From assembly GCA_021773975.1 (NCBI GenBank), contig JAJFJN010000018.1, forward strand, positions 1 through 64,000: a stretch of 64,000 nt of DNA, read 5' to 3'. Origin of the DNA: Gammaproteobacteria bacterium. Lineage in GTDB: Bacteria; Pseudomonadota; Gammaproteobacteria; Chromatiales; Chromatiaceae. Shown in pieces: positions 2,402 to 47,786 of this stretch. The number at the start of each line of letters is the position of its first letter. The stretch's first letter is position 1. The position numbers were made by a program, and so were the translations under genes. The notes below the pieces were generated by a model. It ran no database searches, was not told where the DNA came from, and was given only the letters and a program-made list of their open reading frames with translations.

Positions 2402-2705
2402 GGGGCGTTTCTAAGGCTAAGCCGATTTAACCTAAAAAGAGCAGTTAGATGGACGCACATGCCGCACCAATATCTCGCCTCAGACGCCTACTTTCGGTAC
2501 GTCCTGCACACACGCCCAACTGCTATTATTAGGTTTAATGCCCATCAGAGAGTGGTTTGGGGGGTAGAATAAATCCAAACAAAACCACTAGCGTGTTGGG
2601 ACCCGCAAAATGCACTCACCTCATACCTACAGGCTATATTCCCATATTAGGCAGATAATGCGCTTTAAAAGCAGTACACCTTTCTAGTGTCAACAGAGGT
2701 ATAAC
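2402..2705. other. Intergenic stretch upstream of the cyanophycin unit
   Basis: I see no gene here. The 3' end carries AGAGGT, a good ribosome site for the ATG at 2706. A promoter for the cyanophycin unit would be expected in this stretch, but no box stands out clearly enough to place one. Confidence 0.4.
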
Positions 2706-3518: not shown

Positions 3519-3519
3519 T

Positions 3520-30883: not shown

Positions 30884-32601
30884 ATTTAAAAAGCCTCATG
30901 TTTTTATTGATTTCTCTGGCAATGATGGGCTGCCAAGAGAGTTCACAGATTAAACAGAAAGAGATTAGTCGTGAAATTGATGCGGCGTTTAAACAGGAGC
31001 AGACACAAACTGCACCGCCACCCCCCGCTATTGTTCAATCATTATTGCCACCAGTAAAAATAGATTTGCCACAAAAGAGAAAGACGCCTGAATTTCGTTT
31101 TGACATCGCTGTTGCAGGCGTTCCTGCCAGAGAGTTTTTTATGGGGCTGGTTGCCGGCACTCCAAAAAACATGGTCGTGCATCCATCAGTTACGGGTGAT
31201 ATATCCCTTACCCTCAAGAATGTCACTATTAGTGAGGTAATGGAAACCATACGTGAGGTTTATGGTTATGAATATCGACTGACGAAGATGGGTTATCTGG
31301 TTGTACCAAAACAACTACAAACAAGGGTATATCAGATTGATTACCTGAATCTAAAAAGGACGGGAATCTCTCACACATGGATCAGCTCTGGACAACTAAC
31401 GCAGCAGAGTGGCAGTTCATCATCAGGCGGTTCAGATTCAAATAGTAACAAAGAGGGTAGTAGCTCAGCGAATAGCGGAGGGCAGGTCAGTAGCGCTGTG
31501 CAAACCACAACAAGCTCTGATTTTTGGGGTGAGTTAGGCGGTTCCCTTGAAGCTATGGTGTCAAAAAGTACAGGTGCCAGTGTTGTGTTGAATAAGCTAT
31601 CGGGTTTAGCAATTATACAGGCTTTCCCTGAAGATCATCGCTCTGTTGTAGAGTTCTTAAAGAGCATGCATCTTAATTTAAATCGGCAGGTTGTACTTGA
31701 AGCCAAGATCATTGAGGTAACGCTTAATGATGGTTTTCAATCAGGTATTAACTGGTCAGCCTTGCATAAAAATAAAGCTATTGTGGGTCAAACAGGTGGT
31801 GCTGGTCTTATTGACAGTGGCAGTTCATCGCTTTCATCAGCTACTAGTTTACTCTCCCTTCCCATGGCCGCATTTGGCGGTAGTTTTTTAGCCGCTGCAA
31901 AATTTGGAGGCTTTACAGCGTATTTAGAATTGCTGGAAACACAGGGCAGTGTACAGGTGCTTTCAAGCCCACGAATTTCAACACTTAACAATCAAAAAGC
32001 AGTGATTAAAGTAGGGTCAGATGAGTATTATGTTACTGAGGTAAAGGCTTCAACTACTACCTCCGCGGGTGCTTCAACTACGACACCAGAAATTGTTTTA
32101 ACCCCCTTCTTTTCTGGCATTGCATTAGATGTGACGCCACATGTTGATTTGAATGACAACGTCACATTGCATATTCACCCATCTGTTAGTGATGTGAATG
32201 ATCAGATCAAAGTAATCAAAGTATTTGGTGAAGATCAAAGCTTACCTTTGGCATTAAGTAGTGTACGTGAATCAGATAACCTGGTTAGGGCAAAAAGTGG
32301 TCAGATTATTGCCATAGGCGGCCTGATGGAAAATTACGTTAAGACAGATAATGCAGGAACACCAGGCCTTAAAGATCTACCAGGTATAGGAGGAGCCTTC
32401 CATCACGATAAGACAGCTGCGAAAAAAACTGAGCTGGTGATTTTATTGCGTCCTATTATTATTGATTCTGATGAAGAGCAAGCGAATCGTCTACTTGATA
32501 CAGGTATGCGAGTTAATCAAATGCAGAATGATATTGGTAATTGGCGTACAGAGCATAAAGAGACGCATGAAATACCAATAAATTCTGGCACTTCACCATA
32601 G
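30880..32601 (+). CDS. mshL: MSHA secretin MshL
   Basis: MshL forms the outer-membrane channel for the pilus. It is a lipoprotein: the signal ends MMGC, with the lipidated Cys at about residue 18. An N-domain (ISLTLKNVTISEVMETIREVYG) is followed by a Ser/Gly/Asn-rich low-complexity insert (about residues 178-208). The C-terminal secretin domain has VLSSPRISTLNNQKAVIKVG and SGQIIAIGGLMEN. It has 573 residues. It is translationally coupled to mshK by a 4-base overlap. Confidence 0.94.
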   Translation: MNLKSLMFLLISLAMMGCQESSQIKQKEISREIDAAFKQEQTQTAPPPPAIVQSLLPPVKIDLPQKRKTPEFRFDIAVAGVPAREFFMGLVAGTPKNMVVHPSVTGDISLTLKNVTISEVMETIREVYGYEYRLTKMGYLVVPKQLQTRVYQIDYLNLKRTGISHTWISSGQLTQQSGSSSSGGSDSNSNKEGSSSANSGGQVSSAVQTTTSSDFWGELGGSLEAMVSKSTGASVVLNKLSGLAIIQAFPEDHRSVVEFLKSMHLNLNRQVVLEAKIIEVTLNDGFQSGINWSALHKNKAIVGQTGGAGLIDSGSSSLSSATSLLSLPMAAFGGSFLAAAKFGGFTAYLELLETQGSVQVLSSPRISTLNNQKAVIKVGSDEYYVTEVKASTTTSAGASTTTPEIVLTPFFSGIALDVTPHVDLNDNVTLHIHPSVSDVNDQIKVIKVFGEDQSLPLALSSVRESDNLVRAKSGQIIAIGGLMENYVKTDNAGTPGLKDLPGIGGAFHHDKTAAKKTELVILLRPIIIDSDEEQANRLLDTGMRVNQMQNDIGNWRTEHKETHEIPINSGTSP

Positions 32602-32622
32602 AAAATACCTGGGAAATGTAGC

Positions 32623-33534
32623 GTGTATCTAGAGCACTTTGGCATACGGGAAGCACCATTCTCCTTAACCCCTGATACATCTTATTTTTTTGCATCTCCC
32701 AGTCATCAAGCTGCGCTTAATACCCTTTTGGTTGCCCTTCAAATGGGAGAGGGATTTATTAAAGTAGTGGGCGAGGTTGGCACAGGCAAAACGTTGCTTT
32801 GCCGTAAGCTACTTAAAATTTTGGGTAAAAAATATATAACAGCCTATATTGCGGACCCTTATCTCACACCTGTGCAGTTGCGCTTGGTGCTTGCTAATGA
32901 ATTGGGCATTGAAATGCCTCCAGGCGCAGGCCAGTCTCAAATAAATCAAGTGATTCATGATCGTTTGTTAGCATTGAGCGAAGAAGGAAAAAATGTAGTA
33001 TTAATATTAGATGAAGCCCAAGCCCTGCCGAATGAGAGTTTGGAGGCACTGCGTCTATTAACCAATCTTGAGACTGAAAAGAAAAAGTTGCTGCAGATTG
33101 CTATTTTTGGGCAGCCAGAGCTTGATCAGCGCTTGGCTGAATCTGGCATGCGGCAGCTTAGGCAGCGAATTACATTTTCTCATCGACTGGAAACAATAGA
33201 TTGTGATTGTCTTGGTGATTATATCTATCATCGCCTTTGTCAGGCAGGTTATCAGGGGCGACAACCTTTTACACCGAAGGCACTAAAGCTACTGCATAAG
33301 GCGAGTCGAGGCGTACCTCGATTGATTAATGTACTTGCTCATAAATCACTTATGGCCGCCTTTGGTCAGGGAACCTGGGGCATTACTCCTGAACTTATAC
33401 AGTCCGCTGTTTATGATACTGAAGGCGCAACTAGCTTGCAGGCTTCTTTTCCTTCAGTTGCAAAAAAAGGTTTTATTGGAGCGGTATTGGCATTGCTCGT
33501 GGGTGCTGTTTTCTATTGGATGGGAGGTATCTGA
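32623..33534 (+). CDS. mshM: MSHA biogenesis protein MshM (ExeA-like ATPase)
   Basis: This is an AAA ATPase of the GspA/ExeA family. The start YLEHFGIREAPFSLTPDTSY is characteristic. Walker A is GEVGTGKTLLCRK, and Walker B is VVLILDEAQALPNE. A C-terminal membrane helix (about residues 282-300) anchors it. The start codon is GTG at 32623. It has 303 residues. In related systems such ATPases help place or assemble the secretin. The TGATG junction couples it to mshN. Confidence 0.92.
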   Translation: MYLEHFGIREAPFSLTPDTSYFFASPSHQAALNTLLVALQMGEGFIKVVGEVGTGKTLLCRKLLKILGKKYITAYIADPYLTPVQLRLVLANELGIEMPPGAGQSQINQVIHDRLLALSEEGKNVVLILDEAQALPNESLEALRLLTNLETEKKKLLQIAIFGQPELDQRLAESGMRQLRQRITFSHRLETIDCDCLGDYIYHRLCQAGYQGRQPFTPKALKLLHKASRGVPRLINVLAHKSLMAAFGQGTWGITPELIQSAVYDTEGATSLQASFPSVAKKGFIGAVLALLVGAVFYWMGGI

Positions 33535-34844
33535 TGAGCTTAATTAATCAGGTTCTTACGGATTTAAATCATAGAAGATCAGGTTTTTACTTATCTGGCA
33601 ATGGCGTATTTGTCGGTACAGTTCCTGCTTCCTATACACACAGATCTAAACGCATACAGCCTTTTTTTATAGGTGTTGGTTTGTTCGTTTTAGTTATTGC
33701 TATATTGCTTTGGTTTGCTTCTAAATATAATCCAGAAATAATGAATTATATTTATGATAATTTCCCCAATGCCTCTCGTGTAAAAAATGACTCATATAGT
33801 GTTACGCTTAAATTGTCACCAAATTTTAGTCCAGAAAATAATCAAATAGCGTTGGCATCGGTAAATGAAATAGCCCCCCCTTTGGTAAAAGAGGTGGTCA
33901 CTAGCAGTAAGCCTGTGCCTCTGTCAGCAACATCATCTTTCAGTAACCATCTGCGTGGTGTTTTTACTAAGGAGGTTAGTAGTCTCTCTTTGGGCGATAA
34001 TAAGCAGCTGAGTTTATTGCTGAGTGCCAATGTAGGCGCGACTAAAAACGGCAGTGAATCACAAAAGAAAGAGAAATACGCAATAGATCAAACAGGCTAT
34101 ACGCCTGTGATGGTGTTAGATTCCAGTATGTTTGTAAAATCACAGACAGCCACAGAAACGCCCCCGTTTGCCGATGATGAACAGTACAATAAGTCATTAA
34201 AATCTAATTATAAGCATCTTGAGTCTTCTGATAATCTACCGATAAACAAACCAATTAGAGTAGTAACTAATGAGCAGCGTGCCGAGCAAATTTATCAGCA
34301 AGCACTGGTTTTAAATGCAGATGGTAATTTATATCAGGCATCCTCTAAGTTGAAAGAAGCGCTGCTACTAAATGCAGCTCATCTAAAAGCACGTTATACA
34401 CTTGTGGCATTACTAATTAACGCCAATCAATCAGATGAAGCGCTAAAAGAGCTGATGTTTGGTATGGATATGCAACCTGATCATGCTCCTTTTGCCAAAC
34501 TATATGGCCGATTGATGATGCTTAGAGGTCAGTTTGACGACGCAATAATAACGATGCAGAGCGCGCGCAGTAATGCACAGCAAGATCCAGAATACTATGC
34601 GCAATTAGCAGCAATATACCAACAGCAAAAAAAACACACTGAAGCTATAGCTTATTTTCAGCAGGCTTTGCGATGGCAGCCCACGGTAGGTGTGTGGTGG
34701 ATGGGGTTGGGTATATCACTTGAGCAGCAACAGCAGAAAAGCGATGCAGTAATTGCGTACCGAAAAGCCGATGCAACAGGAACACTTTCAGCAAGTGTAT
34801 CGACTTATGTGCAAGATCGTATTAAGTCTTTAGATAAATGGTAA
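33534..34844 (+). CDS. mshN: MSHA biogenesis protein MshN (TPR protein)
   Basis: The N-terminus SLINQVLTDLNHRR is the MshN signature. A membrane helix follows (about residues 43-65), then a long low-complexity periplasmic linker. The C-terminal third (about residues 245-430) has several TPR repeats, for example AEQIYQQALVLNADGNLYQA. ATG 33534 with GGGAGG at 6-base spacing is preferred over the earlier ATG at 33516; it gives 436 residues and a one-base overlap with the mshM stop. Confidence 0.9.
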   Translation: MSLINQVLTDLNHRRSGFYLSGNGVFVGTVPASYTHRSKRIQPFFIGVGLFVLVIAILLWFASKYNPEIMNYIYDNFPNASRVKNDSYSVTLKLSPNFSPENNQIALASVNEIAPPLVKEVVTSSKPVPLSATSSFSNHLRGVFTKEVSSLSLGDNKQLSLLLSANVGATKNGSESQKKEKYAIDQTGYTPVMVLDSSMFVKSQTATETPPFADDEQYNKSLKSNYKHLESSDNLPINKPIRVVTNEQRAEQIYQQALVLNADGNLYQASSKLKEALLLNAAHLKARYTLVALLINANQSDEALKELMFGMDMQPDHAPFAKLYGRLMMLRGQFDDAIITMQSARSNAQQDPEYYAQLAAIYQQQKKHTEAIAYFQQALRWQPTVGVWWMGLGISLEQQQQKSDAVIAYRKADATGTLSASVSTYVQDRIKSLDKW

Positions 34845-34848
34845 TAGA

Positions 34849-36609
34849 ATGCTAAAGGTTAAAGCTAAAAAAATCAGGCTTGGAGAGCTGTTAGTCCAGC
34901 ATAAAAAAATCTCAACAGATCAACTTAATCAGGCGTTGGATGAGCAACATAGTAGTGGGCGAAAGTTGGGGCGGGTGCTTAAGGATTTTGGCTATATTTC
35001 AGATACAGAGTTGGCGCATTTTTTGGCAGACCAACTGTCTATTCCCTACATTGATTTAAAAAAAACCAGTTACGATCCTAAAATAGTTAGGCGACTCCCG
35101 GAAACGCATGCGCGCCGTATTCGGGCGATAGTGCTTGAAGATACCCCTACTGGTTTTATTGTAGGCATGGTAGATCCAACTGACATTATGGCATTTGATG
35201 AGTTGACTCGTATTCTTCAGTCGACTATTCAGCCCGCTGTAGTTAATGAGCCAGAACTACTGCAAACCTTTGATATTGTCTATCGTCGAACCGATGAGAT
35301 TAGCAATCTGGCAGTAGAGCTAGGGGCATCGCTTACAGAAGATGCAATAGATTTAATGCAATTAATGGCGCAAGCAGAGGTTATTGATGCCCCAGTTGTA
35401 AAATTGCTTCAGAAGCTATTTGAGGATGCAGTGCAGGTAGGTGCATCAGATATTCATATTGAACCTGATGAAACAGTGCTGCGGATTCGTCAGCGGGTAG
35501 ATGGCGTGCTTCAAGAGCACGTCATGAATGAGAAAAATATTGCAGCGGCGCTTATATTGCGCCTTAAGCTCATGAGTAACCTAAATATCTCTGAAAAACG
35601 CCGTCCTCAGGATGGGCGTTTTCAGATTCGGGTTAAACAGTGCAAAATTGATGTTCGATTATCCACCATGCCGATTCAGTATGGTGAGTCTGCGGTTATG
35701 CGTTTATTAAACCAATCGGCAGGTATGCTGAAGTTAGATCACCTTGGTATGGATCCAATGATGCTGGCGCGGTTTCAAAGAATGTTTCACCATCCGCATG
35801 GCATGGTTCTGGTTACTGGACCCACGGGTAGCGGCAAAACATCCACGCTCTATAGCGTGCTGAATGAGCTGAATCAGCCAGATAAAAAAATTATTACCGT
35901 TGAAGATCCAGTTGAATACCGGATGCCACGCATCAACCAGGTTCAGGTAAATACAGCAATAGGTTTAAGTTTTGCATCTGTATTACGTTCAACTCTGCGC
36001 CAAGATCCCGATATTATCCTAGTGGGTGAGATGCGTGATCAGGAGACCGCAGAGATAGGCTTAAGAGCGGCCATGACAGGGCATATGGTGCTTTCTACGC
36101 TGCACACCAATGATGCCATAACCACAGCAAATCGATTGCTGGATATGGGGGCAGAAGGGTTCCTGGTTGCCGCGTCACTTTTAGGAGTGTTGGCACAGCG
36201 ACTGCTTCGTCGAGTCTGCGCAACATGTACAGAGCCTTACCAGGCCAATGCGCATGAAAAAGCATGGTTGGCCACCATATTAAATAAAGATGAGATAAAG
36301 AATATCCAGCTAAAAAAAGCGGTAGGTTGCCAACATTGTCACAACACAGGTTATCAGGGGCGCTTTGGTGTCTTTGAATTGCTTGAAATAGATAGCACAA
36401 TGGTTGATGCCTTACGTAAAAATGATACGGCACTATTTTCAGAAATGGCGCTTGCCCAACCTGGTTTTAAACCGCTTGTTCATTCGGCTTTAAGCTATGC
36501 CTTGAAAGGTGATACAACCTTGGATGAAGTCTTTCGCATTGCAGGTGAAGTTGATGTGTTGAAGTCTGTTGATGAACAGCAGTTGTTGACAACACCAGAG
36601 CAAGTATAG
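34849..36609 (+). CDS. mshE: MSHA extension ATPase MshE
   Basis: This is a GspE/PilB-type hexameric ATPase that drives pilus extension. The N-terminus is an MshEN domain, the c-di-GMP-binding module first described in Vibrio MshE. It shows RLGELLVQHKKIS and KLGRVLKDFGYIS. In the first of these a lysine stands where a glycine is usual. Walker A is GPTGSGKTSTLYS (Lys330), followed by the Asp box and Walker B (RQDPDIILVGEMRD). A C-terminal zinc-type motif has four Cys (CATC and CQHC). It has 586 residues. It likely couples pilus extension to c-di-GMP level. Confidence 0.95.
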   Translation: MLKVKAKKIRLGELLVQHKKISTDQLNQALDEQHSSGRKLGRVLKDFGYISDTELAHFLADQLSIPYIDLKKTSYDPKIVRRLPETHARRIRAIVLEDTPTGFIVGMVDPTDIMAFDELTRILQSTIQPAVVNEPELLQTFDIVYRRTDEISNLAVELGASLTEDAIDLMQLMAQAEVIDAPVVKLLQKLFEDAVQVGASDIHIEPDETVLRIRQRVDGVLQEHVMNEKNIAAALILRLKLMSNLNISEKRRPQDGRFQIRVKQCKIDVRLSTMPIQYGESAVMRLLNQSAGMLKLDHLGMDPMMLARFQRMFHHPHGMVLVTGPTGSGKTSTLYSVLNELNQPDKKIITVEDPVEYRMPRINQVQVNTAIGLSFASVLRSTLRQDPDIILVGEMRDQETAEIGLRAAMTGHMVLSTLHTNDAITTANRLLDMGAEGFLVAASLLGVLAQRLLRRVCATCTEPYQANAHEKAWLATILNKDEIKNIQLKKAVGCQHCHNTGYQGRFGVFELLEIDSTMVDALRKNDTALFSEMALAQPGFKPLVHSALSYALKGDTTLDEVFRIAGEVDVLKSVDEQQLLTTPEQV

Positions 36610-36610
36610 A

Positions 36611-37834
36611 ATGCCTCAGTTTTATTACAAAGGTCGATCTGTTGATTCGGGGCTGAGTGTTGATGGCTATATAGATGCAACAGATGAGAATAGTGCAGCG
36701 GGTCAGTTAATGAATAGGGGCGTTGCCCCTATAACCATAAATGAGAGCGTTAAAGGGGGCGATGATACAAAGTTGGCTTTTGGTGAGCGGCGACCCAATC
36801 TCTCTGATTTAGCACTATTTGCACGTCAAATGCATACCTTAACCAAAGCTGGCGTGCCGATTACAAGGGCGATAAATGGCCTGATTCAAACAGCTAGAAA
36901 TGCATATCTCATCCGCGCAATGAAAGATATGGTTACAAATTTAGAGTCTGGTAGAGATCTTTCAAACTCATTGGCTCGTCATCCAGACATCTTCTCAGGC
37001 CTGTTTGTTAACATTATCAATGTTGGTGAGCAGAGTGGCCACCTTGAACAGTCATTTTTGCAGATCGCCAAGCACCTTGAGAAAGAAAAGGTCAATCGCA
37101 ATCGCATCAAAGCCGCTACACGCTATCCAAAAATTGTGCTTGCCGCCATCACCATAGCAGCAGCTGTTATCAATATTCTTGTTATCCCAGCCTTTAGCAG
37201 CACCTTTACCCGTTTAGGGTCAGACTTGCCTCTGCCAACCCAGATCTTAGTTGCTAGTTCGCATTTTTTTATGACCTATTGGGCTTATATGATAGCGGTT
37301 ATAGTGCTGTTAATGTTTGGCGGCGATAGTTATCTTAAAACCAAGCAGGGACGTTGTACTTGGGATCGCCTAAAACTTAAAACCCCTATTCTTGGGGACA
37401 TCATTCTGCGTACTACCCTGGGGCGATTTACGCACTCTTTTGCAATGTCCCTGCGCGCAGGAATACCTTTAGTACAAGCACTAAGCATGGTCTCAAAAAC
37501 ACTGGATAACAGCTATATTGAAAAACATATCAATGCGATGAAAAGCAGCATTGAACGTGGTGAAACCCTCACAAAAACAGCGACAGCGACCGGTATTTTT
37601 ACTCCACTAGTGCTACAAATGTTGGCAGTAGGAGAGGAGACAGGTAATGTTGATGAGATGATGGATGAAGTAGCAGAGTACTACGAGCAAGAGGTTGATT
37701 ATGATCTGAATTTTGTTGGTGATGCCATAGAACCCATATTGCTCATAATTATTGGAGGCATGGTATTGATACTAGCACTGGGTGTATTTCTGCCTATGTG
37801 GGAGATGAGTTCCGTGGCATTAGGTAATACTTAA
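36611..37834 (+). CDS. mshG: MSHA platform protein MshG
   Basis: This is an inner-membrane GspF/PilC-type platform protein of 407 residues. It has two repeated T2SSF domains (LALFARQMHTLTKAGVPI and FTHSFAMSLRAGIPLVQAL), each with the LxxGxP-type pattern, and three membrane helices. It follows mshE after one base. The small mshF gene found next in Vibrio is missing: only 125 bases separate mshG from the major pilin. Confidence 0.95.
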   Translation: MPQFYYKGRSVDSGLSVDGYIDATDENSAAGQLMNRGVAPITINESVKGGDDTKLAFGERRPNLSDLALFARQMHTLTKAGVPITRAINGLIQTARNAYLIRAMKDMVTNLESGRDLSNSLARHPDIFSGLFVNIINVGEQSGHLEQSFLQIAKHLEKEKVNRNRIKAATRYPKIVLAAITIAAAVINILVIPAFSSTFTRLGSDLPLPTQILVASSHFFMTYWAYMIAVIVLLMFGGDSYLKTKQGRCTWDRLKLKTPILGDIILRTTLGRFTHSFAMSLRAGIPLVQALSMVSKTLDNSYIEKHINAMKSSIERGETLTKTATATGIFTPLVLQMLAVGEETGNVDEMMDEVAEYYEQEVDYDLNFVGDAIEPILLIIIGGMVLILALGVFLPMWEMSSVALGNT

Positions 37835-37959
37835 GTTACATTAGCAAGTGCCGTTATAGATTACAGCATCAGATTGGAATTGATGGGTGGCAGATTTAAT
37901 AACTGGATTCAGTGCGAGTACGACATACTAAATATAAAGATTAGTCTGAGGATAAACTA

Positions 37960-38451
37960 ATGAAGCATAGACAAAAAGGTTTCACACTTATTGAGTTGGT
38001 TGTTGTGATTATTATTCTGGGCATTTTAGCCGCAACAGCAATGCCAAGATTTTTGAATCTTCAAAATCAGGCCAGAACATCATCACTACAGGCGGCCTTC
38101 GGCGCTGTGCGTGCGGCATCAGCAATCTCCCATTCAGGATATCTGGCCCAACAGATAGCTGCTAATGGCGCAGTGGATCTGGATGGTCAGGATGTAAACT
38201 TATGCAATGGCTATCCCACTGCAGCTGATATTGATCTTGCTGCCAGCATTAACCAGGGCGGTGCAACGGATTATGTCTTGGTTCAAGGTGATGCTACTGC
38301 TGCAGCAGTAACTACAATTACTGCAGTGAATGCAGCTACACCTGCTTCATGTGTCATTACTTATACAGCTCCAGCAGGAGTCGATACTGCTGCAAGCTGT
38401 GCTGATCCCGGTAATGGCCCCGGTATTACAATTGTTGTGACTGGTTGCTAA
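37960..38451 (+). CDS. mshA: MSHA major pilin, MshA/MshB type
   Basis: This is a type IV pilin with a short leader and the cleavage motif KG/FTLIELVVVIIILGILA, including Glu at +5. The mature part is about 155 residues with four cysteines (NLCNG, ASCVI, ASCAD, VTGC) that could form two disulfides. It is Ala/Thr-rich, as in MshA. Vibrio has both mshB and mshA; here only one such gene is present. Its own upstream gap, GAGGA ribosome site, and strong terminator downstream suggest high separate expression. Confidence 0.9.
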   Translation: MKHRQKGFTLIELVVVIIILGILAATAMPRFLNLQNQARTSSLQAAFGAVRAASAISHSGYLAQQIAANGAVDLDGQDVNLCNGYPTAADIDLAASINQGGATDYVLVQGDATAAAVTTITAVNAATPASCVITYTAPAGVDTAASCADPGNGPGITIVVTGC

Positions 38452-38539
38452 TAGTGTAAGTGCCATTAGATTAACGGTGTTGCTTAAGAAGAGCAGAAAT
38501 TACTATTGCTATTTTTTCAGTGCTATCGTAGGTATAGGA

Positions 38540-38573
38540 AGGGTGTGATAGGTGATGTCACACCCTTTTTTTA
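38540..38573 (+). terminator. Strong intrinsic terminator after the major pilin
   Basis: AGGGTGTGA (38540-38548) pairs perfectly with TCACACCCT (38558-38566), followed directly by a T-rich run. This is the best terminator in the window. It would produce abundant short pilin transcripts and lower expression of the minor pilins beyond it. Confidence 0.85.
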
Positions 38574-38647
38574 TTGGTGCCATGTTTATTTAAAATGCAT
38601 TGAACCTCCATTGAAATGATCTGTGATATTCAGTTGAGACAGATGTC

Positions 38648-39145
38648 ATGCCTGTAAAATATAGAGTTAAACAGCAGGGCTTTACGCTGACAGAATTGAT
38701 CATCATTATGATTATCATGGGGGTATTGATGGCGACTGCTGCCCCGCGTTTTATGGGCACTCAAACCTTTGAGTCACGTGGTTTTTATGATGAGGTGCTT
38801 TCCTCGCTTCGTTATGCACAAAAGATAGCAGTGGGGACAGGTTGCCCAATACAGTTCACTATCACGACAGGTCCAGATAGTTACGGCATGACTCGAGGAA
38901 CGGCTTGTGAGAATGGTAATTTTATCGGTGGTGTCCCTATCATCAATCCACGCACGGGAGCTGACTACCCCACAGCTGCGCCTGCTGATGTTGTCTTTTC
39001 AAATGTGGTCGGTTTTCCTATTGAGTTTACTTCTTTTGGTCGGGCGATAAATACTGGGGGGACACCGCTGGTATCTCCAACTGCTACAGTAAATGTTGGC
39101 ACACGCACTATTACAATCTGGGCTGAAACAGGTTTAGTGCAGTGA
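38648..39145 (+). CDS. mshC: MSHA minor pilin MshC
   Basis: This prepilin has the processing motif QG/FTLTELIIIMIIMGVLM with Glu at +5 and the following hydrophobic helix. The rest (ESRGFYDEVLSSLRYAQKIAV, VGTRTITIWAETGLVQ) fits the MshC/GspH-like minor pilins. It has 165 residues. It overlaps mshD by 4 bases and starts the minor pilin group C-D-O-P. Confidence 0.88.
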   Translation: MPVKYRVKQQGFTLTELIIIMIIMGVLMATAAPRFMGTQTFESRGFYDEVLSSLRYAQKIAVGTGCPIQFTITTGPDSYGMTRGTACENGNFIGGVPIINPRTGADYPTAAPADVVFSNVVGFPIEFTSFGRAINTGGTPLVSPTATVNVGTRTITIWAETGLVQ

Positions 39146-39660
39146 TTCATATCAATACGAAACACCAGCAAGGTGCCACCCTCATAGAGCTTGTTCTCTC
39201 GATGGTGATAATAAGTATTGCTGTGACTGGGGTGTTGGTGGTGATGCTGTTGACCAGTCGCCACAGTGCTGATCCGATGGTGGAGCATCAGGCAGTAGCT
39301 ATTGCTGAATCCTATCTTGAAGAGATTATGTTGTTACCTTTTAACGAAGATGCTGCAAATGGGCAAACGGGTGATGTTTTAGAAGGTGTTCTGGGTCCGG
39401 ATGCTGGTGAAGTGCGCGGCAGTTTTGATGATGTAAATGATTACGATACGCTGGCTGATAATGTAGCCACAGATGTAAATGATGCTCCTATTCCAGGGCT
39501 GGGTAATTATTCAGTAGCGGTTACTGTTGTTAATGATGGTGCTTTAGGGCCAGCCGGTCAACTAGTTGCAGCAGCTGATGCACAGCTGGTTACAGTTACA
39601 GTAAGCCATACTTCAGGTATGAGTCCAATAATTATAAGTGCTTACCGTACGAGATATTGA
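39142..39660 (+). CDS. mshD: MSHA minor pilin MshD
   Basis: The prepilin motif is QQG/ATLIELVLSMVIISIAV, with Ala rather than Phe at +1 and Glu at +5, as is usual for MshD/PilV-type minor pilins. ESYLEEIMLLPF is a further family segment. It has 172 residues. The start is GTG at 39142, inside the mshC stop. It is expected in the pilus tip or priming complex. Confidence 0.88.
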   Translation: MIHINTKHQQGATLIELVLSMVIISIAVTGVLVVMLLTSRHSADPMVEHQAVAIAESYLEEIMLLPFNEDAANGQTGDVLEGVLGPDAGEVRGSFDDVNDYDTLADNVATDVNDAPIPGLGNYSVAVTVVNDGALGPAGQLVAAADAQLVTVTVSHTSGMSPIIISAYRTRY

Positions 39661-40562
39661 TGGTGTTTCGGTCCCGCTCTGTGATGTTCTATCGCCCACG
39701 CAGCCACCAAGGCTTCACCTTGATGGAGTTGCTTTTGGTGATACTCATTACAGGCATTATGGCTACAATTGTCGGTGCGGTGATTACCCGGCCAATGCAG
39801 GGTTATGTTGCACTGACTCAACGGGCAGCGTTGGTTGATCATGCGGAGATGGCGCTGCGACGTATGCAGCGGGATATCCGCAGGGCATTGCCCAATAGCA
39901 TTCGGGTAAATGGTAATGCGATCGAGATGGTCAATGTGGTGGAGGGGGTTGCTTATCGGGATGGCCTTACTGGTATTTTAGATGAGCTGGATGTTACAGC
40001 TCCGGATGATTCTTTCAACACAATTGGCACCTTTAGTACACAGCTCCCTGTTGTGGCTTCAACAGGAATTCGGCTTGTGATTTATAACCTGCCAGCAGGA
40101 GGAGAGGCAGGAAACAACATCTACGATGCAGTAGCAGGGAGCCATGTCATTACGCCAATTGATACGGCTATAACAATAGGGTCTGCTGCAGATAATGGAG
40201 GCATTGAACATACCATCACTATGGCTCCTTTCCATCAATTTAAACGGCAATCATCTCAGAATAGGCTTTATGTAATTGACACCCCAGTTACCTATATCTG
40301 TGACCCAGTAACTGGCACCTTGACCCGCTACGCTGGTTACCCGATTCAGGCAGCACAGCCTGTTACAGCGGCTTCCCCTTTAACTGATGCTGGGGTTAGC
40401 GCTGATCCGGTCAGTGTGAATTTGACTGACTGTGATATTGAATATGTCCCAAGTGCTTCGCAACGACCAGAAATAGTACGGATGTCGCTGACTGTTACAA
40501 ACCCAGATAGTGGTGAATCAGTGACGCTTATGCACCAGGTTCATGTGGTGAATGCATCATGA
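39660..40562 (+). CDS. mshO: MSHA minor pilin MshO
   Basis: This prepilin has the motif QG/FTLMELLLVILITGIMA and Glu at +5, followed by the MshO/PilW-like region (DHAEMALRRMQRDIRRALPNS). It is about 300 residues, the largest of the minor pilins, as in other MSHA loci. A TTG at 39657 opens the frame, but ATG 39660, overlapping the mshD stop (TGATG), is more natural. It overlaps mshP by 4 bases. Confidence 0.88.
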   Translation: MVFRSRSVMFYRPRSHQGFTLMELLLVILITGIMATIVGAVITRPMQGYVALTQRAALVDHAEMALRRMQRDIRRALPNSIRVNGNAIEMVNVVEGVAYRDGLTGILDELDVTAPDDSFNTIGTFSTQLPVVASTGIRLVIYNLPAGGEAGNNIYDAVAGSHVITPIDTAITIGSAADNGGIEHTITMAPFHQFKRQSSQNRLYVIDTPVTYICDPVTGTLTRYAGYPIQAAQPVTAASPLTDAGVSADPVSVNLTDCDIEYVPSASQRPEIVRMSLTVTNPDSGESVTLMHQVHVVNAS

Positions 40563-40996
40563 CACTGGGTAATGGCATGGCCAGGCAGAGCGGGTTTTCT
40601 CTGGTTGCTGCAATCTTTATCCTGGTAATTCTTGGCATGATGGGTAGCTATATGGTTTCCACCAGTGTAATGCAGTATCAGACCACTGATTATGCCGTGC
40701 AAGGTGCCAGAGCCTATAAAGCGGCACAGAGTGGTCTTCAATGGGCCATTTATCAGGTCATAAATGGTACTGGAAATTTTACCTGTGGAAATGAAGGAGC
40801 AGAGAGAACAAGAAACCTGGTATTTGCCGCAAATGGCCTTAATGGCTTTGGTGTGGATGTAACATGTAATTGGGTCTCTTATACTGCTGATAATATTTGT
40901 ATGTATCGGTTTACCACAGAAGCCAGATTTGGTGGGTTTGGGCAACCTGATTTTGTCTCCCGTAGGCTTGAAGCAGTTGTATCTGATGCGTGCTGA
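40559..40996 (+). CDS. mshP: MSHA minor pilin-like protein MshP
   Basis: The N-terminal hydrophobic helix follows SG/FSLVAAIFILVILGMMG. The Glu at +5 is replaced by Ala, which is usual in the MshP/PilX group. The segment AYKAAQSGLQWAIYQV is also typical. It has 145 residues. The protein probably sits at the pilus tip, where the missing Glu5 is tolerated. mshQ follows after 148 bases. Confidence 0.87.
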   Translation: MTLGNGMARQSGFSLVAAIFILVILGMMGSYMVSTSVMQYQTTDYAVQGARAYKAAQSGLQWAIYQVINGTGNFTCGNEGAERTRNLVFAANGLNGFGVDVTCNWVSYTADNICMYRFTTEARFGGFGQPDFVSRRLEAVVSDAC

Positions 40997-41144: not shown

Positions 41145-44100
41145 ATGAAGCAAATTAAAGTAATTATAGATATAACTGCAATCCTGCTGCTGTTTTTTTT
41201 ATTGGGTTTTTCCAGTAGTAGTTCTGCTGCAATCTGTATTAATTCAAATTGTAGTTATTTAAGCATACAAAATGCTATTGACGCTGCAGTGAATGGTGAC
41301 ACGATCCTTGTTTCAGATGGCGTCTATAGTGAGACGCTAAACTACGCCAGTAAAATCATTACCATCCAATCACAGAATGGTGCAGCAAGTGCAACCATTC
41401 AGGGCGATGGATCAAATGCACCTGTTATCACCTTTGCCAGTAGTGCTTTAAATGTAAGCACTGCCCTTGATGGTTTTACCATTGATAACCAGTCTAACGG
41501 ACAATTCTTTACTCAGGGTATCTTGATTTCAAATGGAGCTGCACCGACGCTGAGAAACCTTCTTATTAAGGGGAATAGTGTTTCTGAAGGTTATTCCGGT
41601 GGTGGTATAAAAATTGATGGGGGTGGGGTTAGTATTCACGACAGCACTATTGGTGGATCCTTGGCCAATAAAAACAGTGCTGCCAAGGGAGGAGGCATCT
41701 ATGCTGTAAATAGCTCTCTTCCTATTACCATTACTAACTCGAATTTCTCTTATAACAACGCTAATGATTTAGGTGGTGCGATCTATCTAACCAATGTTTC
41801 GTCGACGCTTACCATTACCGGTTCCGTTTTGAGTGATAATACGGGTAGAAATAGAGGCGGCGCAATCTATAGTGATATGGCTGCAATATCCATAACCAAT
41901 ACGAGCATGGTGCGAAATGTTACTGTTATGGTTGAAGGAGCTGCAATCTATTATGTTGGCTCTGCTTCTAGCATAACTGTTAGTGATTCAATCCTAACTG
42001 ACAACACTGCCGCTACCAGTTCGGGTGGGGGAAGAGGGGGGGCGATATACAGTGTTGGTGCAGTTCTAAATATATCAAATACTAATCTTGATAGAAATTC
42101 AGGGTCGGATGCAGGAGCTGCAATCTATATAAGCGGTGTTTCAGCCATGAATACCATCACGAATTCTACCCTCAACAATAACTCGGCACGCAACAGAGGT
42201 TCCGCTATCTATAGTAATGGTACGCCATTATCCATAACGGATACGGCTATAGATGGTAATACAACCAGTAATGAAGGTGGGGCTTTATACCTGGTAAACA
42301 GTGGTGCAGCGGTAGCAATTACTGGCGGCACCCTTAGTAACAATTCGGGGGCACATGGTGGTGCCATATATATGACTGGGGGGGCTGAATCGCTCTCTAT
42401 AACCGGCACCACGTTGAGCGGAAACACATGTCTCTACCATGGTGGGGCGATTTATCTGGACTCTCTTTTGGCTACATCAACTATCACTGATTCCACAATC
42501 AACAATAGCACTGGCAGCCATAGGGGAGGGGCAATTTACAATGCTAATTCGCTGCTGACAATAGTTGATACAGACATGGATAACCATAGTAGCGCCTATG
42601 AGGGGGGGGCGGTTTACATCAAAGGATTAGCTGCGACAACAACAATCACCGGTGGTTCTATTAGTAATAATATAGTGAATAGTAGTGGTGGAGCCTTGTA
42701 TGTTGGCGACGGCGCTAATGTCGCTATTACCGGTGCAACTATAAATAGCAATACAGCCAATCTCTATAATGGCGGCGCCATGTTTGTGCAAGGGACTGGC
42801 ACTACAGTAAATCTCTCTAAAACAATTATCTCAGGAAATGAAACACACCAGCGGGGGGGGGCTATCGTTGTTGGCTCCTCCACAGTAGTAACCCTCACTA
42901 ACTGCATAGTTACAGGTAACGTAGCAGATGGTGAACGCTGGAGTGAAGGTGGTGGGATCATGAATTATGGTACTGTTAACATCTACAACAGTACATTTGC
43001 CGGCAACTACGTCTGGGGACCGTGGGGAGGAGGAGGAGGCTTAAGAAACTCTGGAACTGCAACTATTAAGAACAGCATATTCTGGGGTAATAGAGCAGTC
43101 AGGGGGTCGCAAATACGTGGTACGACTACGGTCACATATTCAGATATTGAAGATGGTTACAGTGGAACAGGAAACATTGATCAGGATCCGCTTTTTGTAA
43201 ATTCACAGCGGGCATCGCGCAACAAGCCGACAGCAGCCGGAGATTTTCACATACAGGCTGGATCACCGATCCTTGATCAGGGTACATCAATTGGCGCGCC
43301 TGCAGATGATATTGATGATGATCGTAGGCCAATGGGGGGCGGTATTGATATGGGGGCAGATGAGTGCTGTGGTTCACTGCTTCCTAGCCCGAGTTATTTC
43401 CTAATCAACCATGATGGCTTTGGCATTCACTGTGTCGGTGAGGTTATTTCGGTCAGGCCAAAGCAGAGCGATGGATCAGATCTTACGGGTTATACCGGAA
43501 CTGTTGTACTGGATACGCAATCAGGTAAAGGGAGTTGGATTGCTACTAATGGCAATGGTACTTTGACTGATGTAACGGCAAATGATGGTAAGGCAACCTA
43601 TACATTTTCTGGTACTGAGACGTTGCCAGTTACCTTTACCCTTGAGTATAGAGAGGGTGCTTCAACTATCAATGTTGATGTATATGATAATACATTACGT
43701 GATAATGATGCCGAAGGTGATATCGTATTCTCACCTAATGGCTTTACTGTCAGTGCCGCACCGCTCAATCTATCAGAATTTAATTCAACCATTCCGGTTC
43801 AGATAGCAGGCAACAGTTTTCCTCTGTACATTACGGCCTATGGTGAGACACCTACTGATACGGTTTGTGGGATTATTGAGTCATATACTGGTGCTGAGCC
43901 TAAACCATTAAAATTTTGGTCAGACTACAATGATCCAATAGCTGGAACACGGCAGGTTACTGTTGATAGAGTGGCCGTAGCATCATTTGAAAATGATGCT
44001 ATTGGGCAAGATGTTTTATTTACAAATGGTCAGGCTCAAGTTACTACGAAATACAAGGATGTTGGACGGATCACACTAAGCATGAAGGATGATAATGTTG

Positions 44101-45659
44101 ATGATCCTGAGTTGCCAACAGGCATTCAAGGCGCAACAAATCCATTTGTATTAATACCGGCTGATTTTGTGTTATCGATTACTGCAAATCTAACGACAGA
44201 GGGTGATTGTAGTACGAGTAGTTCATTTGAATTACTCCCTCCACTTGATCATACAAATAATAAAACGCTTATTGCCGGAGACGATTTCTGCGTTAAGGTT
44301 ACCGCTGTAGAAACCAATGGCGAAGCTACGCCTAATTTTGGCAGGGAAACGACGGGGGAAAGTGTAGAGCTGATCTCCACAATACTTGCTCCTGCAGAAG
44401 TAGACGGAGGTTTAGATCCAGGCGTTACAATTTCAACAGATTTTGATTTTACCACTGGTATTGCGAATGGTTCTGCAGAAGGTGTATTTACCTGGGCAGA
44501 GGTTGGTATTACCAATCTAACTGCACATGTTAAGGAAGATCAAAATGAAGTTAGTGATTATCTGGGAGCGGGAGATGTTACTAGCTCTGTTAGTGTGCCA
44601 GTTGGGCGGTTTATCCCAGCAAGTTTTTCAGTGTTTCCCGTTGATCCAGAATTTAGGCCGGGTTGTCAGGCAGGTCAGTTTACCTATATAGGTGAAAGTT
44701 TTAATTATTCTTCGATACCAAGACTCACTCTAACTGCCCTTAATGCCATAGGAGGCACAACAACGAATTACACATTACCAGACTGGGATAAGCTTGCGGC
44801 TAATAATGCCACTTATTCGCCAGTGGCTGAACTTAGTAAGACTAGTCCAGATTTAAGCCAGACACGTGAAGATGGTGTTATAACAATTGTCTTTGATGAA
44901 GCTAATGCTGCTGACTTGCAGTCGTTTAACCGTGCTATAGCTCCCCAGAATGATTTTACCGCTCAGATAGCACTCTCAATTGATTTGCAGGATGGTGACA
45001 ATGTTTCCATTGATGGCGGTCCTGTAGATGGCAGTAAATATACATATACCTTTGGTAGAACAGCTGCGCCGAATGGTATTTCATTTGGTGGCATAGAAGA
45101 TCCAAATACAGCAGAGCTGGAAGCGGAGATACCAAAGAGGGTGTTCTATGGACGGTTAAAAATTGGCATTAACTCTGGCTCAGAACTATTTGATTTAAAT
45201 ATACCCGTTACAACAGAGAGATATGAGTATGATGAAATAAATGATGTGGTCATTGGTTTTGTTCCAAATGTGGATGATGTTTGCACAGGTGGTGTTGGCA
45301 ATGCTTCAGATATAACCTTTTTATTAACTGATCCGAATGGTTCAGATGCTTTGGAGGCAGTAAATACCTGTATATGGGAAAGTCCATCTATAGATAATGA
45401 GTCTGGTATTGCGTGTGTAGGTGTGGAAGCAATTATAGATAGAACCTATGCTGAACCGCCTCTGGCAGCAGGTGATCTTAATGTCTGGTTGAGAGCGCCT
45501 GATAATGGTGCTTCAGGTTCCCTGAATCTTGGAGCTAATGCCCCACCCTGGTTAAAGTATGATTGGTATGGTATCGGTGATGAAAATCCACAAGGTCTTG
45601 CCACCTTTGGTATATTCACAGGTAACAGGCAGCACATTTTTTTACGTGAAGTCTATTGA
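41145..45659 (+). CDS. mshQ: Giant MshQ: Pmp-like beta-helix fused to MshQ C-terminal region
   Basis: This is an exported protein of 1504 residues. A signal peptide (about 1-29) is followed by a right-handed parallel beta-helix (about 35-735). In it the motif GG[A/G][I/L/V]Y recurs about every 30-40 residues, some 18 times (GGAIYLTN, GGAIYSD, GGALYLVN, GGAVYIKG). This resembles chlamydial Pmp repeats. From about residue 745 to the end it matches the MshQ C-terminal region (DUF6701-type), ending FLREVY. MshQ proteins I know carry other N-terminal domains, such as LamG-like ones. The likely role is a large pilus-associated surface or tip protein. Four poly-G tracts of 7-9 bases lie inside the beta-helix coding region. 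Confidence 0.85.
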   Translation: MKQIKVIIDITAILLLFFLLGFSSSSSAAICINSNCSYLSIQNAIDAAVNGDTILVSDGVYSETLNYASKIITIQSQNGAASATIQGDGSNAPVITFASSALNVSTALDGFTIDNQSNGQFFTQGILISNGAAPTLRNLLIKGNSVSEGYSGGGIKIDGGGVSIHDSTIGGSLANKNSAAKGGGIYAVNSSLPITITNSNFSYNNANDLGGAIYLTNVSSTLTITGSVLSDNTGRNRGGAIYSDMAAISITNTSMVRNVTVMVEGAAIYYVGSASSITVSDSILTDNTAATSSGGGRGGAIYSVGAVLNISNTNLDRNSGSDAGAAIYISGVSAMNTITNSTLNNNSARNRGSAIYSNGTPLSITDTAIDGNTTSNEGGALYLVNSGAAVAITGGTLSNNSGAHGGAIYMTGGAESLSITGTTLSGNTCLYHGGAIYLDSLLATSTITDSTINNSTGSHRGGAIYNANSLLTIVDTDMDNHSSAYEGGAVYIKGLAATTTITGGSISNNIVNSSGGALYVGDGANVAITGATINSNTANLYNGGAMFVQGTGTTVNLSKTIISGNETHQRGGAIVVGSSTVVTLTNCIVTGNVADGERWSEGGGIMNYGTVNIYNSTFAGNYVWGPWGGGGGLRNSGTATIKNSIFWGNRAVRGSQIRGTTTVTYSDIEDGYSGTGNIDQDPLFVNSQRASRNKPTAAGDFHIQAGSPILDQGTSIGAPADDIDDDRRPMGGGIDMGADECCGSLLPSPSYFLINHDGFGIHCVGEVISVRPKQSDGSDLTGYTGTVVLDTQSGKGSWIATNGNGTLTDVTANDGKATYTFSGTETLPVTFTLEYREGASTINVDVYDNTLRDNDAEGDIVFSPNGFTVSAAPLNLSEFNSTIPVQIAGNSFPLYITAYGETPTDTVCGIIESYTGAEPKPLKFWSDYNDPIAGTRQVTVDRVAVASFENDAIGQDVLFTNGQAQVTTKYKDVGRITLSMKDDNVDDPELPTGIQGATNPFVLIPADFVLSITANLTTEGDCSTSSSFELLPPLDHTNNKTLIAGDDFCVKVTAVETNGEATPNFGRETTGESVELISTILAPAEVDGGLDPGVTISTDFDFTTGIANGSAEGVFTWAEVGITNLTAHVKEDQNEVSDYLGAGDVTSSVSVPVGRFIPASFSVFPVDPEFRPGCQAGQFTYIGESFNYSSIPRLTLTALNAIGGTTTNYTLPDWDKLAANNATYSPVAELSKTSPDLSQTREDGVITIVFDEANAADLQSFNRAIAPQNDFTAQIALSIDLQDGDNVSIDGGPVDGSKYTYTFGRTAAPNGISFGGIEDPNTAELEAEIPKRVFYGRLKIGINSGSELFDLNIPVTTERYEYDEINDVVIGFVPNVDDVCTGGVGNASDITFLLTDPNGSDALEAVNTCIWESPSIDNESGIACVGVEAIIDRTYAEPPLAAGDLNVWLRAPDNGASGSLNLGANAPPWLKYDWYGIGDENPQGLATFGIFTGNRQHIFLREVY
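42036..42042 (+). repeat. Poly-G tract, G7, in mshQ
   Basis: Seven G in a row encode the Gly-Gly of the repeat GRGGAIYSVG, near residue 298. The open frame is intact in this sequence. Confidence 0.9.
42378..42384 (+). repeat. Poly-G tract, G7, in mshQ
   Basis: Seven G in a row encode the Gly-Gly in MTGGAESL, near residue 412. The frame is intact. Confidence 0.9.
42602..42609 (+). repeat. Poly-G tract, G8, in mshQ
   Basis: Eight G in a row encode part of YEGGAVYIKG, near residue 487. Tracts of this length can slip during replication. Confidence 0.9.
42853..42861 (+). repeat. Poly-G tract, G9, in mshQ
   Basis: Nine G in a row encode part of HQRGGAIVVG, near residue 571. It is the longest coding homopolymer noticed in the window and the best candidate for slipped-strand phase variation. 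Confidence 0.9.
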
Positions 45660-45729: not shown

Positions 45730-46056
45730 ATGACTTTACAAATAAAACTCAAAGACATCGTATACAGCAAGAAATCTCAAATTCACGGCACGGGTCTATT
45801 TGCTAAGCGCAAATTTAAAAAAGGTGAATACATCGGTACCTACGAGGGTCCGCAGGCAAAGCGTAATGGCATGTATGTGCTATGGGTTTATGAAGAGGAA
45901 GATGCAGACCCAATTGGCCGTAGCGGAAAGAACCTGCTTCGTTATCTAAATCACTCGGTGACAGGTAATGCGGAGTTTGATGGCTTTGATCTCTATGCAC
46001 TTAAAAAGATAGGTGAGCATGATGAGATCACTTTCGATTATAAAGAGTTCGATTAA
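45730..46056 (+). CDS. Small SET-domain protein (putative lysine methyltransferase)
   Basis: The 108-residue product consists almost only of a SET domain. It shows SKKSQIHGTGLFAKRKFKKGEYIGTYEG (start of the fold, GxG SAM motif region), then LRYLNHSVTGNAEFDGF (the NH motif) and GEHDEITFDYKEFD (the catalytic Tyr region). Bacterial SET proteins of this size occur widely. Their targets are mostly unknown. The 3' end overlaps that of the convergent J-domain gene by 29 bases. It lies 70 bases after mshQ; I see no functional link. Confidence 0.85.
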   Translation: MTLQIKLKDIVYSKKSQIHGTGLFAKRKFKKGEYIGTYEGPQAKRNGMYVLWVYEEEDADPIGRSGKNLLRYLNHSVTGNAEFDGFDLYALKKIGEHDEITFDYKEFD

Positions 46057-46670: not shown

Positions 46671-47786
46671 ATGATCAGAGAGGGGTTTACCGTGAGTTCA
46701 TTTCCTACACATTATTGGCATAGGCTTGATGATGGTCGTGTGCAATGTGATGTCTGCCCACGAGCATGCAAGCTAAAGAATGGTCAGCAGGGGTTATGTT
46801 TTGTCAGAGCTTGTGAAAATGATCAGGTTGTTCTTACCACTTACGGCCGCTCCAGTGGTTTTTGTATTGACCCTATAGAGAAAAAACCACTTAATCATTT
46901 CTTACCGGGCACCCCTGTGCTCTCCTTTGGTACGGCGGGCTGTAATCTGGCGTGTAAATTTTGCCAGAATTGGGATATGAGCAAATCGCGAGAAATCGAC
47001 ATTCTGGCGGATGCCGCTTCACCTGAGATGATTGCCAGAAAAGCCCGTGAACTAAAATGCCGCAGTGTGGCTTTCACCTATAATGATCCCGTTATTTTTC
47101 TTGAATATGCGGATGATACTGCGATTGCTTGCCATGAACAGGGCATTAAAACAGTAGCTGTTACAGCGGGGTATATCTCAGCTGATAAACCACGTGAACA
47201 ATTCTTTAGTCATATTGATGCAGCCAATGTTGACCTAAAAGCCTTCAGCGAAGATTTTTACCATAAACTCACAGGTGGGCATCTACAGGTGGTTTTGGAT
47301 ACTTTGCTCTATTTAAAGCAGGAGACTGATGTTTGGTTTGAGCTTACTACGTTGATGATTCCAGGAAAAAATGATTCTGAAAAAGAGATTAATGAAATGA
47401 CTCAATGGGTGGTTGAGCATCTTGGTCCTGATGTGCCCATGCACTTTAGTGCTTTTCACCCTGACTGGAAGATGCTTGATGTGCCTCCGACACCACTCAG
47501 TACATTGATGCGGGCGCGTGAGACGGCTATGAACAATGGAGTGCATTATGCCTATATTGGCAATGCCCATGATTGGAGAGGTGATAGTACCTGGTGCCAC
47601 AATTGTGGCAAGTTACTTATCCAGCGTGATTGGTACGAACTGGAAGACTGGAATTTAACACCCAATAGTGGATGTTCCGCTTGTGGTGTTCTTTGTGCGG
47701 GCCTATTTGAAGCTGAGCCTGGCCATTGGGGTTCTCATCGACAGCCTGTAAGAATAAATTACTATGATTCTGATGTTATTTCGTAA
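46671..47786 (+). CDS. amrS: AmmeMemoRadiSam-type radical SAM enzyme
   Basis: This is a radical SAM protein of 371 residues. The cluster motif is CNLACKFC (about residues 91-98). Before it stands a Cys-rich N-terminus (CDVCPRACKLKNGQQGLCF), and near the C-terminus are CHNC and CSACGVLC. This layout matches AmrS, which often goes with AMMECR1 (AmrA) and Memo (AmrB) proteins; neither partner is in the window. The reaction is not established. A GTG at 46692 with AGAGGGG at good spacing is a credible alternative start. Confidence 0.88.
   Translation: MIREGFTVSSFPTHYWHRLDDGRVQCDVCPRACKLKNGQQGLCFVRACENDQVVLTTYGRSSGFCIDPIEKKPLNHFLPGTPVLSFGTAGCNLACKFCQNWDMSKSREIDILADAASPEMIARKARELKCRSVAFTYNDPVIFLEYADDTAIACHEQGIKTVAVTAGYISADKPREQFFSHIDAANVDLKAFSEDFYHKLTGGHLQVVLDTLLYLKQETDVWFELTTLMIPGKNDSEKEINEMTQWVVEHLGPDVPMHFSAFHPDWKMLDVPPTPLSTLMRARETAMNNGVHYAYIGNAHDWRGDSTWCHNCGKLLIQRDWYELEDWNLTPNSGCSACGVLCAGLFEAEPGHWGSHRQPVRINYYDSDVIS

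Follow-up and report, generated by a model that had tools for sequence, protein, structure and literature searches.

A Pmp-type beta-helix in front of DUF6701 in the MshQ protein of a gammaproteobacterial msh locus: a putative pilus-borne adhesin

INTRODUCTION

MshQ is a putative adhesin of the MSHA pilus (PMC7096442) and has also been listed with MSHA components of unknown function (PMC9815625). In Vibrio cholerae, deletion of mshQ lowers surface MSHA and retraction does not need MshQ (PMC7096442), and in Vibrio fischeri swapping mshQ between strains altered squid colonization, with like effects of other msh genes (PMC4094467). MshQ differs in length between two Shewanella strains (PMC7439477). 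The grafting of adhesive modules on type IV pili is a described principle (PMC10191384, PMC9934059), and a first-pass annotation of the locus described here went too far in presenting its beta-helical head as a new way to give a pilus binding specificity, given this principle (PMC10191384), the putative adhesin role of MshQ (PMC7096442) and the V. fischeri swap (PMC4094467). Neither a helix-headed MshQ nor a survey of MshQ heads was found in the open-licence literature, among the matches listed; subscription papers (e.g. the A. hydrophila MshQ work cited in PMC7439477) lie outside that scope. Here we describe a gene in which an MshQ-type C-terminal half is joined to a predicted beta-helix with Pmp-type repeats.

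Chlamydial Pmps carry repeated GGA[ILV] motifs in a beta-helix and paired FxxN motifs, and they have a middle domain and a C-terminal autotransporter barrel. The Pmp middle region and the autotransporter nature of these proteins are described in PMC10715098, and the same source records Pmp-type rungs in organisms other than Chlamydia.

RESULTS AND DISCUSSION

The msh locus

The window, by which we mean the whole stretch of 64,000 nucleotides that was analysed, contains the following genes, all on the forward strand.

28266-29237, +, mshI-like gene (PilM_2, Aeromonas caviae order)
29237-29848, +, mshJ-like gene (A. caviae order)
30880-32601, +, mshL secretin (TIGR02519, 261 bits, cut-off 250.2)
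32623-33534, +, mshM-like gene (A. caviae order)
33516-34844, +, mshN-like gene (A. caviae order)
34849-36609, +, mshE-like extension ATPase with MshEN domain (Pfam, NCBIfam, A. caviae order)
36611-37834, +, mshG-like platform protein (A. caviae order)
37960-38451, +, mshA-like prepilin (N_methyl, A. caviae order)
38648-39145, +, mshC-like minor prepilin (N_methyl, A. caviae order)
39142-39660, +, mshD-like minor prepilin (N_methyl, A. caviae order)
39657-40562, +, mshO-like minor prepilin (N_methyl, A. caviae order)
40559-40996, +, mshP-like prepilin, directly upstream of mshQ (match to the A. caviae ORF at this place, E 7.1e-8)
41145-45659, +, mshQ ORF, 1504 aa (open reading frame, DUF6701 match, gene order)

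The genes from 28266 to 40996 match A. caviae ORFs in identical order, each of the twelve compared having an E-value of 7.1e-8 or better except mshJ (8.9e-7), and the A. caviae stretch, which has one pilin ORF extra, closes with a DUF6701 ORF. The A. caviae record is unannotated; apart from mshL, which passes its NCBIfam cut-off, the genes were named here (mshI, J, M, N, E, G, A, C, D, O and P) from the V. cholerae order. The V. cholerae msh gene order is described in PMC4624765. Gene order and the DUF6701 C-terminal half together identify the ORF at 41145-45659 as mshQ, and its slot after mshP, which the first-pass annotation had already recognized, is that of the DUF6701 ORF in A. caviae, in a locus whose mshL match is over the TIGR02519 cut-off.

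The msh locus is lower in G+C than most of its surroundings: in 2-kb steps, the G+C fraction is 0.385-0.466 between 28 and 50 kb, where the msh locus and the genes that follow it lie, against 0.431-0.533 in the rest of the window. Downstream of mshQ lie genes for a small SET-domain protein (45730-46056) and an AmmeMemoRadiSam-system radical SAM enzyme (46671-47786, NCBIfam).

Domain organization of the mshQ product

The mshQ ORF is open over 1504 codons without interruption and encodes the following parts.

41145-41231, +, Sec-type signal peptide, residues 1-29 (by eye: basic start, hydrophobic AILLLFFLLGF, then SSSSSAA)
41232-43364, +, right-handed beta-helix head, residues 30-740, with N-terminal cap, rungs and end part (Pfam Beta_helix, AlphaFold2, PDB comparison)
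41598-43046, +, Pmp-type repeats GG[AG][ILV], residues 152-634, period mostly 26-28 aa (pattern count, Chlam_PMP, POMP_repeat)
43242-43364, +, choice-of-anchor Q end of the helix, residues 700-740 (NCBIfam NF041518)
43389-43769, +, Ig-like linker, residues 749-875 (blastp, alignment, model)
43779-45653, +, DUF6701, residues 879-1503, a predicted string of Ig-like beta-sandwiches (PF20419, model)
45597-45656, +, conserved C-terminal tail ending IFLREVY (alignment; tail pattern in DUF6701 ORFs)

The first-pass reading of a single ORF with a beta-helix front and an MshQ/DUF6701 back thus agrees with Pfam, NCBIfam, AlphaFold2 and gene order. Pfam matches at E<=0.1 are only to DUF6701 (PF20419, residues 879-1503, 265.8 bits, cut-off 27), Beta_helix (44.6 bits, cut-off 25.9) and Chlam_PMP (33.5 bits, cut-off 20.6), with neither a Pmp middle nor an autotransporter domain among them. 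The POMP repeat is also matched by NCBIfam, and choice_anch_Q (NF041518) is matched at residues 700-740 with 26.6 bits, barely above its cut-off of 25. When the front part was compared by blastp with 75 other MshQ heads, matches started only at residue ~738, i.e. at the linker, and from there onward the protein aligns with other MshQ proteins at up to 52 % identity.

The strict pattern GG[AG][ILV]Y occurs only 10 times, short of the 'about 18' repeats first estimated, although that figure is close to the 19 occurrences of the relaxed GG[AGS][ILVMF] and equals the number of rungs in the model described below. There are 16 occurrences of GG[AG][ILV] in the protein (mean 0.74 and maximum 4 in 2000 shuffles of the head), and one further motif of this form, at residue 731, lies beyond the block at 152-634; the 13 occurrences of G[GAS][AG][ILV][YF] are spaced by 26-28 residues, once by 33. 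FxxN is found three times and [FILMV]xxN 21 times, 12 of the 21 preceding a GG[AG][ILV]-like motif (shuffled maximum 4).

The IFLREVY tail is a possible docking strand, and its last 11 residues have a pLDDT below 50 in the AlphaFold2 model of the back half. The tail pattern occurs in 126 of 183 DUF6701 ORFs, in 22 of the 135 MshO-like ORFs and, among 4498 unrelated ORFs, in 39. A C-terminal strand common to MshQ and MshO was considered and set aside as weak, at this frequency among MshO-like ORFs and with the pattern absent from the window's own MshO.

Predicted structures and proposed role

Structure prediction of both halves, a check suggested at the outset, gives a beta-helix for the front as had been expected. 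The AlphaFold2 model of residues 26-745, made from the single sequence and of middling confidence (pLDDT 66.5, pTM 0.74), has 18 three-strand rungs by our own count; in its last 97 residues (649-745), which include the choice-of-anchor Q end, the pLDDT is below 50. The back half, modelled with 64 sequences, is a string of Ig-like sandwiches (pLDDT 84.4, pTM 0.72) whose structural neighbours, at modest scores, include invasin, PrgB, InvE and FdeC, and also complement C3, integrins and filamin.

When the helix model was compared with the PDB in the VIA second look, which barely covers this model past residue 475 and the back-half model past residue 412, the best match was Vag8 (Z 28.9, rmsd 2.3 over 399 residues), followed by phage proteins, AlgG, PfbA (22.9) and pertactin (21.7). 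Foldseek returned five PDB matches with E <0.001, four PL6 alginate lyases and Vag8; its TM-scores are low (0.09-0.31 by query length in the best 50 matches), and two leucine-rich-repeat proteins are also among its matches. Vag8, the PL6 lyases, AlgG, PfbA, pertactin and the helix head have a common fold, and nothing more. Searching the PDB by sequence gave a single chain for the helix ('transmembrane protein, putative', 1e-6) and nothing at E<=1 for the back half.

The domain make-up, the gene order and the predicted folds were established by computation, and the pilus-borne helical adhesin is putative, although plausible. The best explanation, which we regard as likely on balance, is that the gene is the mshQ of an MSHA-type type IV pilus, with the conserved half docked and the helix displayed at or near the tip. 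The signal peptide, as read from the sequence, would take MshQ into the periplasm, where the linker and the DUF6701 Ig-like string would most likely dock on the minor-pilin complex MshC/D/O/P, by analogy with PilY1. MshQ might then be carried out through the MshL secretin on the pilus extended by MshE, in the manner of PilY1 in T4aP, so that the 18-rung predicted rod with its choice-of-anchor Q end would be shown at or near the pilus tip as a contact surface, and the head may bind a glycan or other surface ligand. No experiment on MshQ at the pilus tip was found in the literature searched.

The helix head could instead be an enzyme, such as a polysaccharide lyase, a hydrolase or an epimerase-like protein, that acts on a polymer from the pilus and is no adhesin. 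We think this quite unlikely: the structural neighbours do include AlgE/AlgG epimerases, GH110, tailspikes and PL6 alginate lyases, the last accounting for four of the five Foldseek matches with E <0.001, but there is no enzymatic family among the Pfam and NCBIfam matches, the helix core has few charged residues (3.6 % K+R, 5.0 % D+E) and rich in S/T/N (35.0 %) and G (16.2 %), the very regular rungs would leave little room for a cleft, and the top Z belongs to the autotransporter passenger Vag8, although all of these neighbours have only the fold in common. An adhesive head on the pilus is the reading that we follow below.

Survey of MshQ front ends

Overlapping genome samples were searched for DUF6701. 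It was found in 81 of the 369 genomes sampled from the class, in 45 of 398 from the phylum, in 25 of 210 from the family (the order-level search covered those 210 genomes again) and in 1 of 6 from the window's genus. A total of 185 distinct DUF6701 proteins, each with a head of 60 residues or more (146 + 39), was assembled from fetched stretches and from 63 named loci, several partial DUF6701 matches being left out; the first set comprises 170 DUF6701 ORFs less 13 duplicates and less 11 with a head under 60 aa or a partial DUF6701. No two of the 185 have identical 200-residue tails, and only one pair is more than 95 % alike in the last 200 residues (95.5 %). In twenty of the 185 the head is truncated by the end of a contig.

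The commonest head family is Laminin_G_3 (LamG), found by Pfam in 87 of the 184 other heads (25 of 47, 27 of 51, 21 of 47 and 14 of 39 in the four sets). Among the families listed, DUF7305 occurs in 18, PA14 in seven and Beta_helix in four; these tallies cover the best 25 of 27, 29, 31 and 28 families in the four sets, so single weak matches may be hidden. In 91 of the 95 heads without LamG by our own profile, choice-of-anchor J occurs in five and types A, Q and T in one each. The suggestion that the helix stands in place of the usual N-terminal domains therefore holds in so far as LamG is commonest, but there is no single usual domain and the heads vary widely. The MshQ head of L145 has a weak YCF48/BNR-like match.

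Searching for proteins that combine a helix with DUF6701, another of the proposed checks, showed the combination to be rare: five of the 185, the window included, have a Beta_helix match by Pfam, among the families listed. The other four are L175 (108.9 bits), L296 (97.1), L312 (36.7) and L054 (27.4, adjoining LamG); L175, L296 and L312 adjoin msh-type pilins, and L054 adjoins mshI- and mshJ-like genes. Pmp repeats are found only in the window protein, with 19 occurrences of GG[AGS][ILVMF] against at most three in any of the 184 others. In L175, mshQ (1-3717) and mshP (3758-4417) are convergent, and L060 and L070 likewise have mshP on the opposite strand.

Head exchange and linkage to msh genes

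Across relatives the front half of MshQ is exchangeable and the back half conserved. In a FastTree tree of 183 DUF6701 domains the sister of the window protein (SH-like support 98) is L126, apparently from the same contig as L143 (JAKITT010000155.1), and its head is choice-of-anchor A. Both lie inside a clade of 23 rows (SH-like support 98) in which the heads comprise the Pmp helix of the window, a NosD-type helix (L175), choice-of-anchor A (L126), LamG, PKD (L067, L071, L073) and CBM96 (L148, L171). Over the 183 tips at least 40 changes between LamG and non-LamG are required, compared with a mean of 61 and a minimum of 51 in 300 shuffles, and the 20 heads cut by contig ends could have produced some false changes. 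This difference from the shuffles is phylogenetic signal, and the heads have therefore been exchanged often but not freely or at random. With these varied heads and at least 40 changes, MshQ would seem to be a scaffold, mostly linked to the pilus, whose front ends can be exchanged, and the window's MshQ looks like a rare variant among such proteins.

Tandem long DUF6701 genes were seen at four loci (two at L059, three at L184, four at L204 and two at L294), and at L059 and L204 some of the tandem genes have LamG heads and others do not. At L186 the DUF6701 matches are divided between overlapping ORFs (2142-4259 and 4256-5182), which may reflect a broken gene or a sequencing error.

Linkage was counted for the 164 DUF6701 genes flanked by 4 kb or more, and 21 others with shorter flanks were left out. 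Msh-type genes lie within 8 kb of 132 of the 164: 84 have minor pilins and machinery, 40 minor pilins only and eight machinery only, and the 32 with neither may include some with distant neighbours, since msh-type genes were found by similarity to those of the window. The expectation that such genes always sit beside msh genes is thus mostly, but not always, borne out. The 32 exceptions, among them the tandem genes of L184 and L204, are what would be expected if MshQ were an outer-membrane or freely secreted surface protein that shares only the operon, its helix acting on the cell surface without a pilus, much as in the giant choice-of-anchor Q proteins to which this account likens the head; Shewanella MshQ has moreover been listed among outer-membrane proteins (PMC10520059). 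We nevertheless find this account unlikely, as most DUF6701 genes are msh-linked (132 of 164), the Pfam and NCBIfam matches of the window protein include no family of outer-membrane barrels, and V. cholerae has less surface MSHA once mshQ is deleted (PMC7096442). Display of the helix on the pilus is the account that we retain.

Origin of the helix and integrity of the fusion

Relatives of the helix were found in 31 of 204 genomes of the family and 38 of 340 of the class. Three congeners have the closest ones, in open frames 3337, 3343 and 3371 aa long (E 6.4e-57 to 5e-51), and DUF6701 was looked for in these three genomes and not found; the best relative outside the family, in the class sample, has an E-value of 2.0e-18. 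Also among the best is an open frame of 5167 aa in the window's own genome (contig C44:22986-38489; G000, L249), which contains several beta-helices, four choice-of-anchor Q and two CSLREA stretches. Searching a viral collection with the helix gave eight candidate stretches, none of them confirmed, and a plasmid collection gave one weak helix match (Runella, choice-of-anchor Q) and one DUF6701 match (an A. caviae record).

The label 'chlamydial', applied to the repeats at first, is misleading, since Pmp-type rungs occur elsewhere too (PMC10715098) and, in the genomes searched, the relatives closest to the helix belong to the window's genus. A chlamydial origin is unsupported in that the nearest relatives are congeners (E down to 6.4e-57), the genomes searched being without Chlamydia. 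Nor is there support for the idea that the helix was captured recently from the giant gene of this genome: the mshQ gene and the 20 kb around the giant gene share no identical stretch of 14 bases or more, and the G+C of the head (0.453) is not that of the giant gene (0.523). The kinship of the helix with those of the genus is unaffected by this, and the helix may have arrived together with the low-G+C msh locus. Since the nearest relatives in the genomes searched are same-genus giants, the joining of the helix probably took place in this lineage or in a near donor.

In the congener G005 an msh-type ATPase gene adjoins the rarA-like (MgsA_C) and LolA genes that the window also has, and an msh-type cluster is present in G003; a search for DUF6701 found none in these two genomes. 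Transfer of the msh locus followed by the joining of a genus-type helix would fit. The G003 cluster encodes a 472-aa prepilin-like protein with weak YCF48/BNR-like repeats (L246:5852-7270), as if a module had been grafted on an MshP-like pilin.

The combination with Pmp-type repeats is present in one genome only among the 185 proteins, and that genome is a draft assembly of 113 contigs which also holds the 5167-aa open frame with related helices, so one might ask whether an assembly artefact has joined a giant beta-helix gene to a remnant of mshQ. This is very improbable. The junction falls between the choice-of-anchor Q end (740) and the linker start (~749), the ORF is open throughout, the absence of a shared 14-base run noted above applies equally here, the head has the G+C of the six msh genes measured (0.42-0.49) and not that of the giant gene, and a Beta_helix match precedes DUF6701 in four other genomes. 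We therefore treat the fusion as genuine.

Comparison with known systems

The survey yields a testable answer on MshQ function, in which a conserved pilus-side half carries an exchangeable front, LamG being commonest and the beta-helix rare. A broader interpretation, offered tentatively and falling somewhat short of likely, is that MshQ is a pilus-borne display scaffold, in which DUF6701 would be the pilus anchor for grafted, exchangeable heads (LamG lectin-like, PA14, PKD, CBM96, ice-binding-like, beta-helix and choice-of-anchor A, J, Q and T), and the binding range of MSHA would change by head exchange; the head here would be a Pmp-type beta-helix rod at the tip, unlike any pilus adhesin found described in the literature searched. 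If so, MSHA pili would be, like T4aP, filaments with a binding range that evolves through the cutting and pasting of modules, and the front half of mshQ would give a clue to the surface that a bacterium sticks to.

The C-terminal domain of PilC/PilY1 is a Pfam family that is absent from the Pfam list of the window protein at E<=0.1; unlike PilC/PilY1, the protein carries DUF6701, and its putative tip position is proposed by analogy. The likeness is to the PilC/PilY1 tip adhesins and the modular pilins of T4aP as large modular pilus-associated proteins with variable adhesive parts (PMC10191384, PMC9934059). With the chlamydial Pmps the protein has in common its GGA[ILV] beta-helix rungs and a Chlam_PMP match over the cut-off, but it is without a match to the Pmp middle or autotransporter domains, its FxxN seems mostly replaced by [ILVM]xxN, with only three FxxN remaining, and its repeats have a regular period of 26-28 residues and stand on an MshQ half. 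The choice-of-anchor Q giants of C44 and the congeners have the same type of helix (31-48 % identity over parts) and the same end domain, but unlike the window's MshQ they are open frames with several helices, of 5167 aa in this genome and of 2722-3371 aa in three congeners. L175 (JAAELW010000204.1, MAG Bpl_16) resembles the window in its beta-helix, choice-of-anchor Q (43.9 bits), linker, DUF6701 and adjoining msh genes; it differs in its NosD-type rungs, without GGA repeats and with no significant similarity between the heads, and in having mshQ convergent to mshP. With MshQ and DUF6701 proteins in general the window's protein has in common the DUF6701 half, the Ig-like linker and the slot after mshP in the msh locus, and what sets it apart is a Pmp-type helix as the head, where LamG is the commonest in the others (87 of 184).
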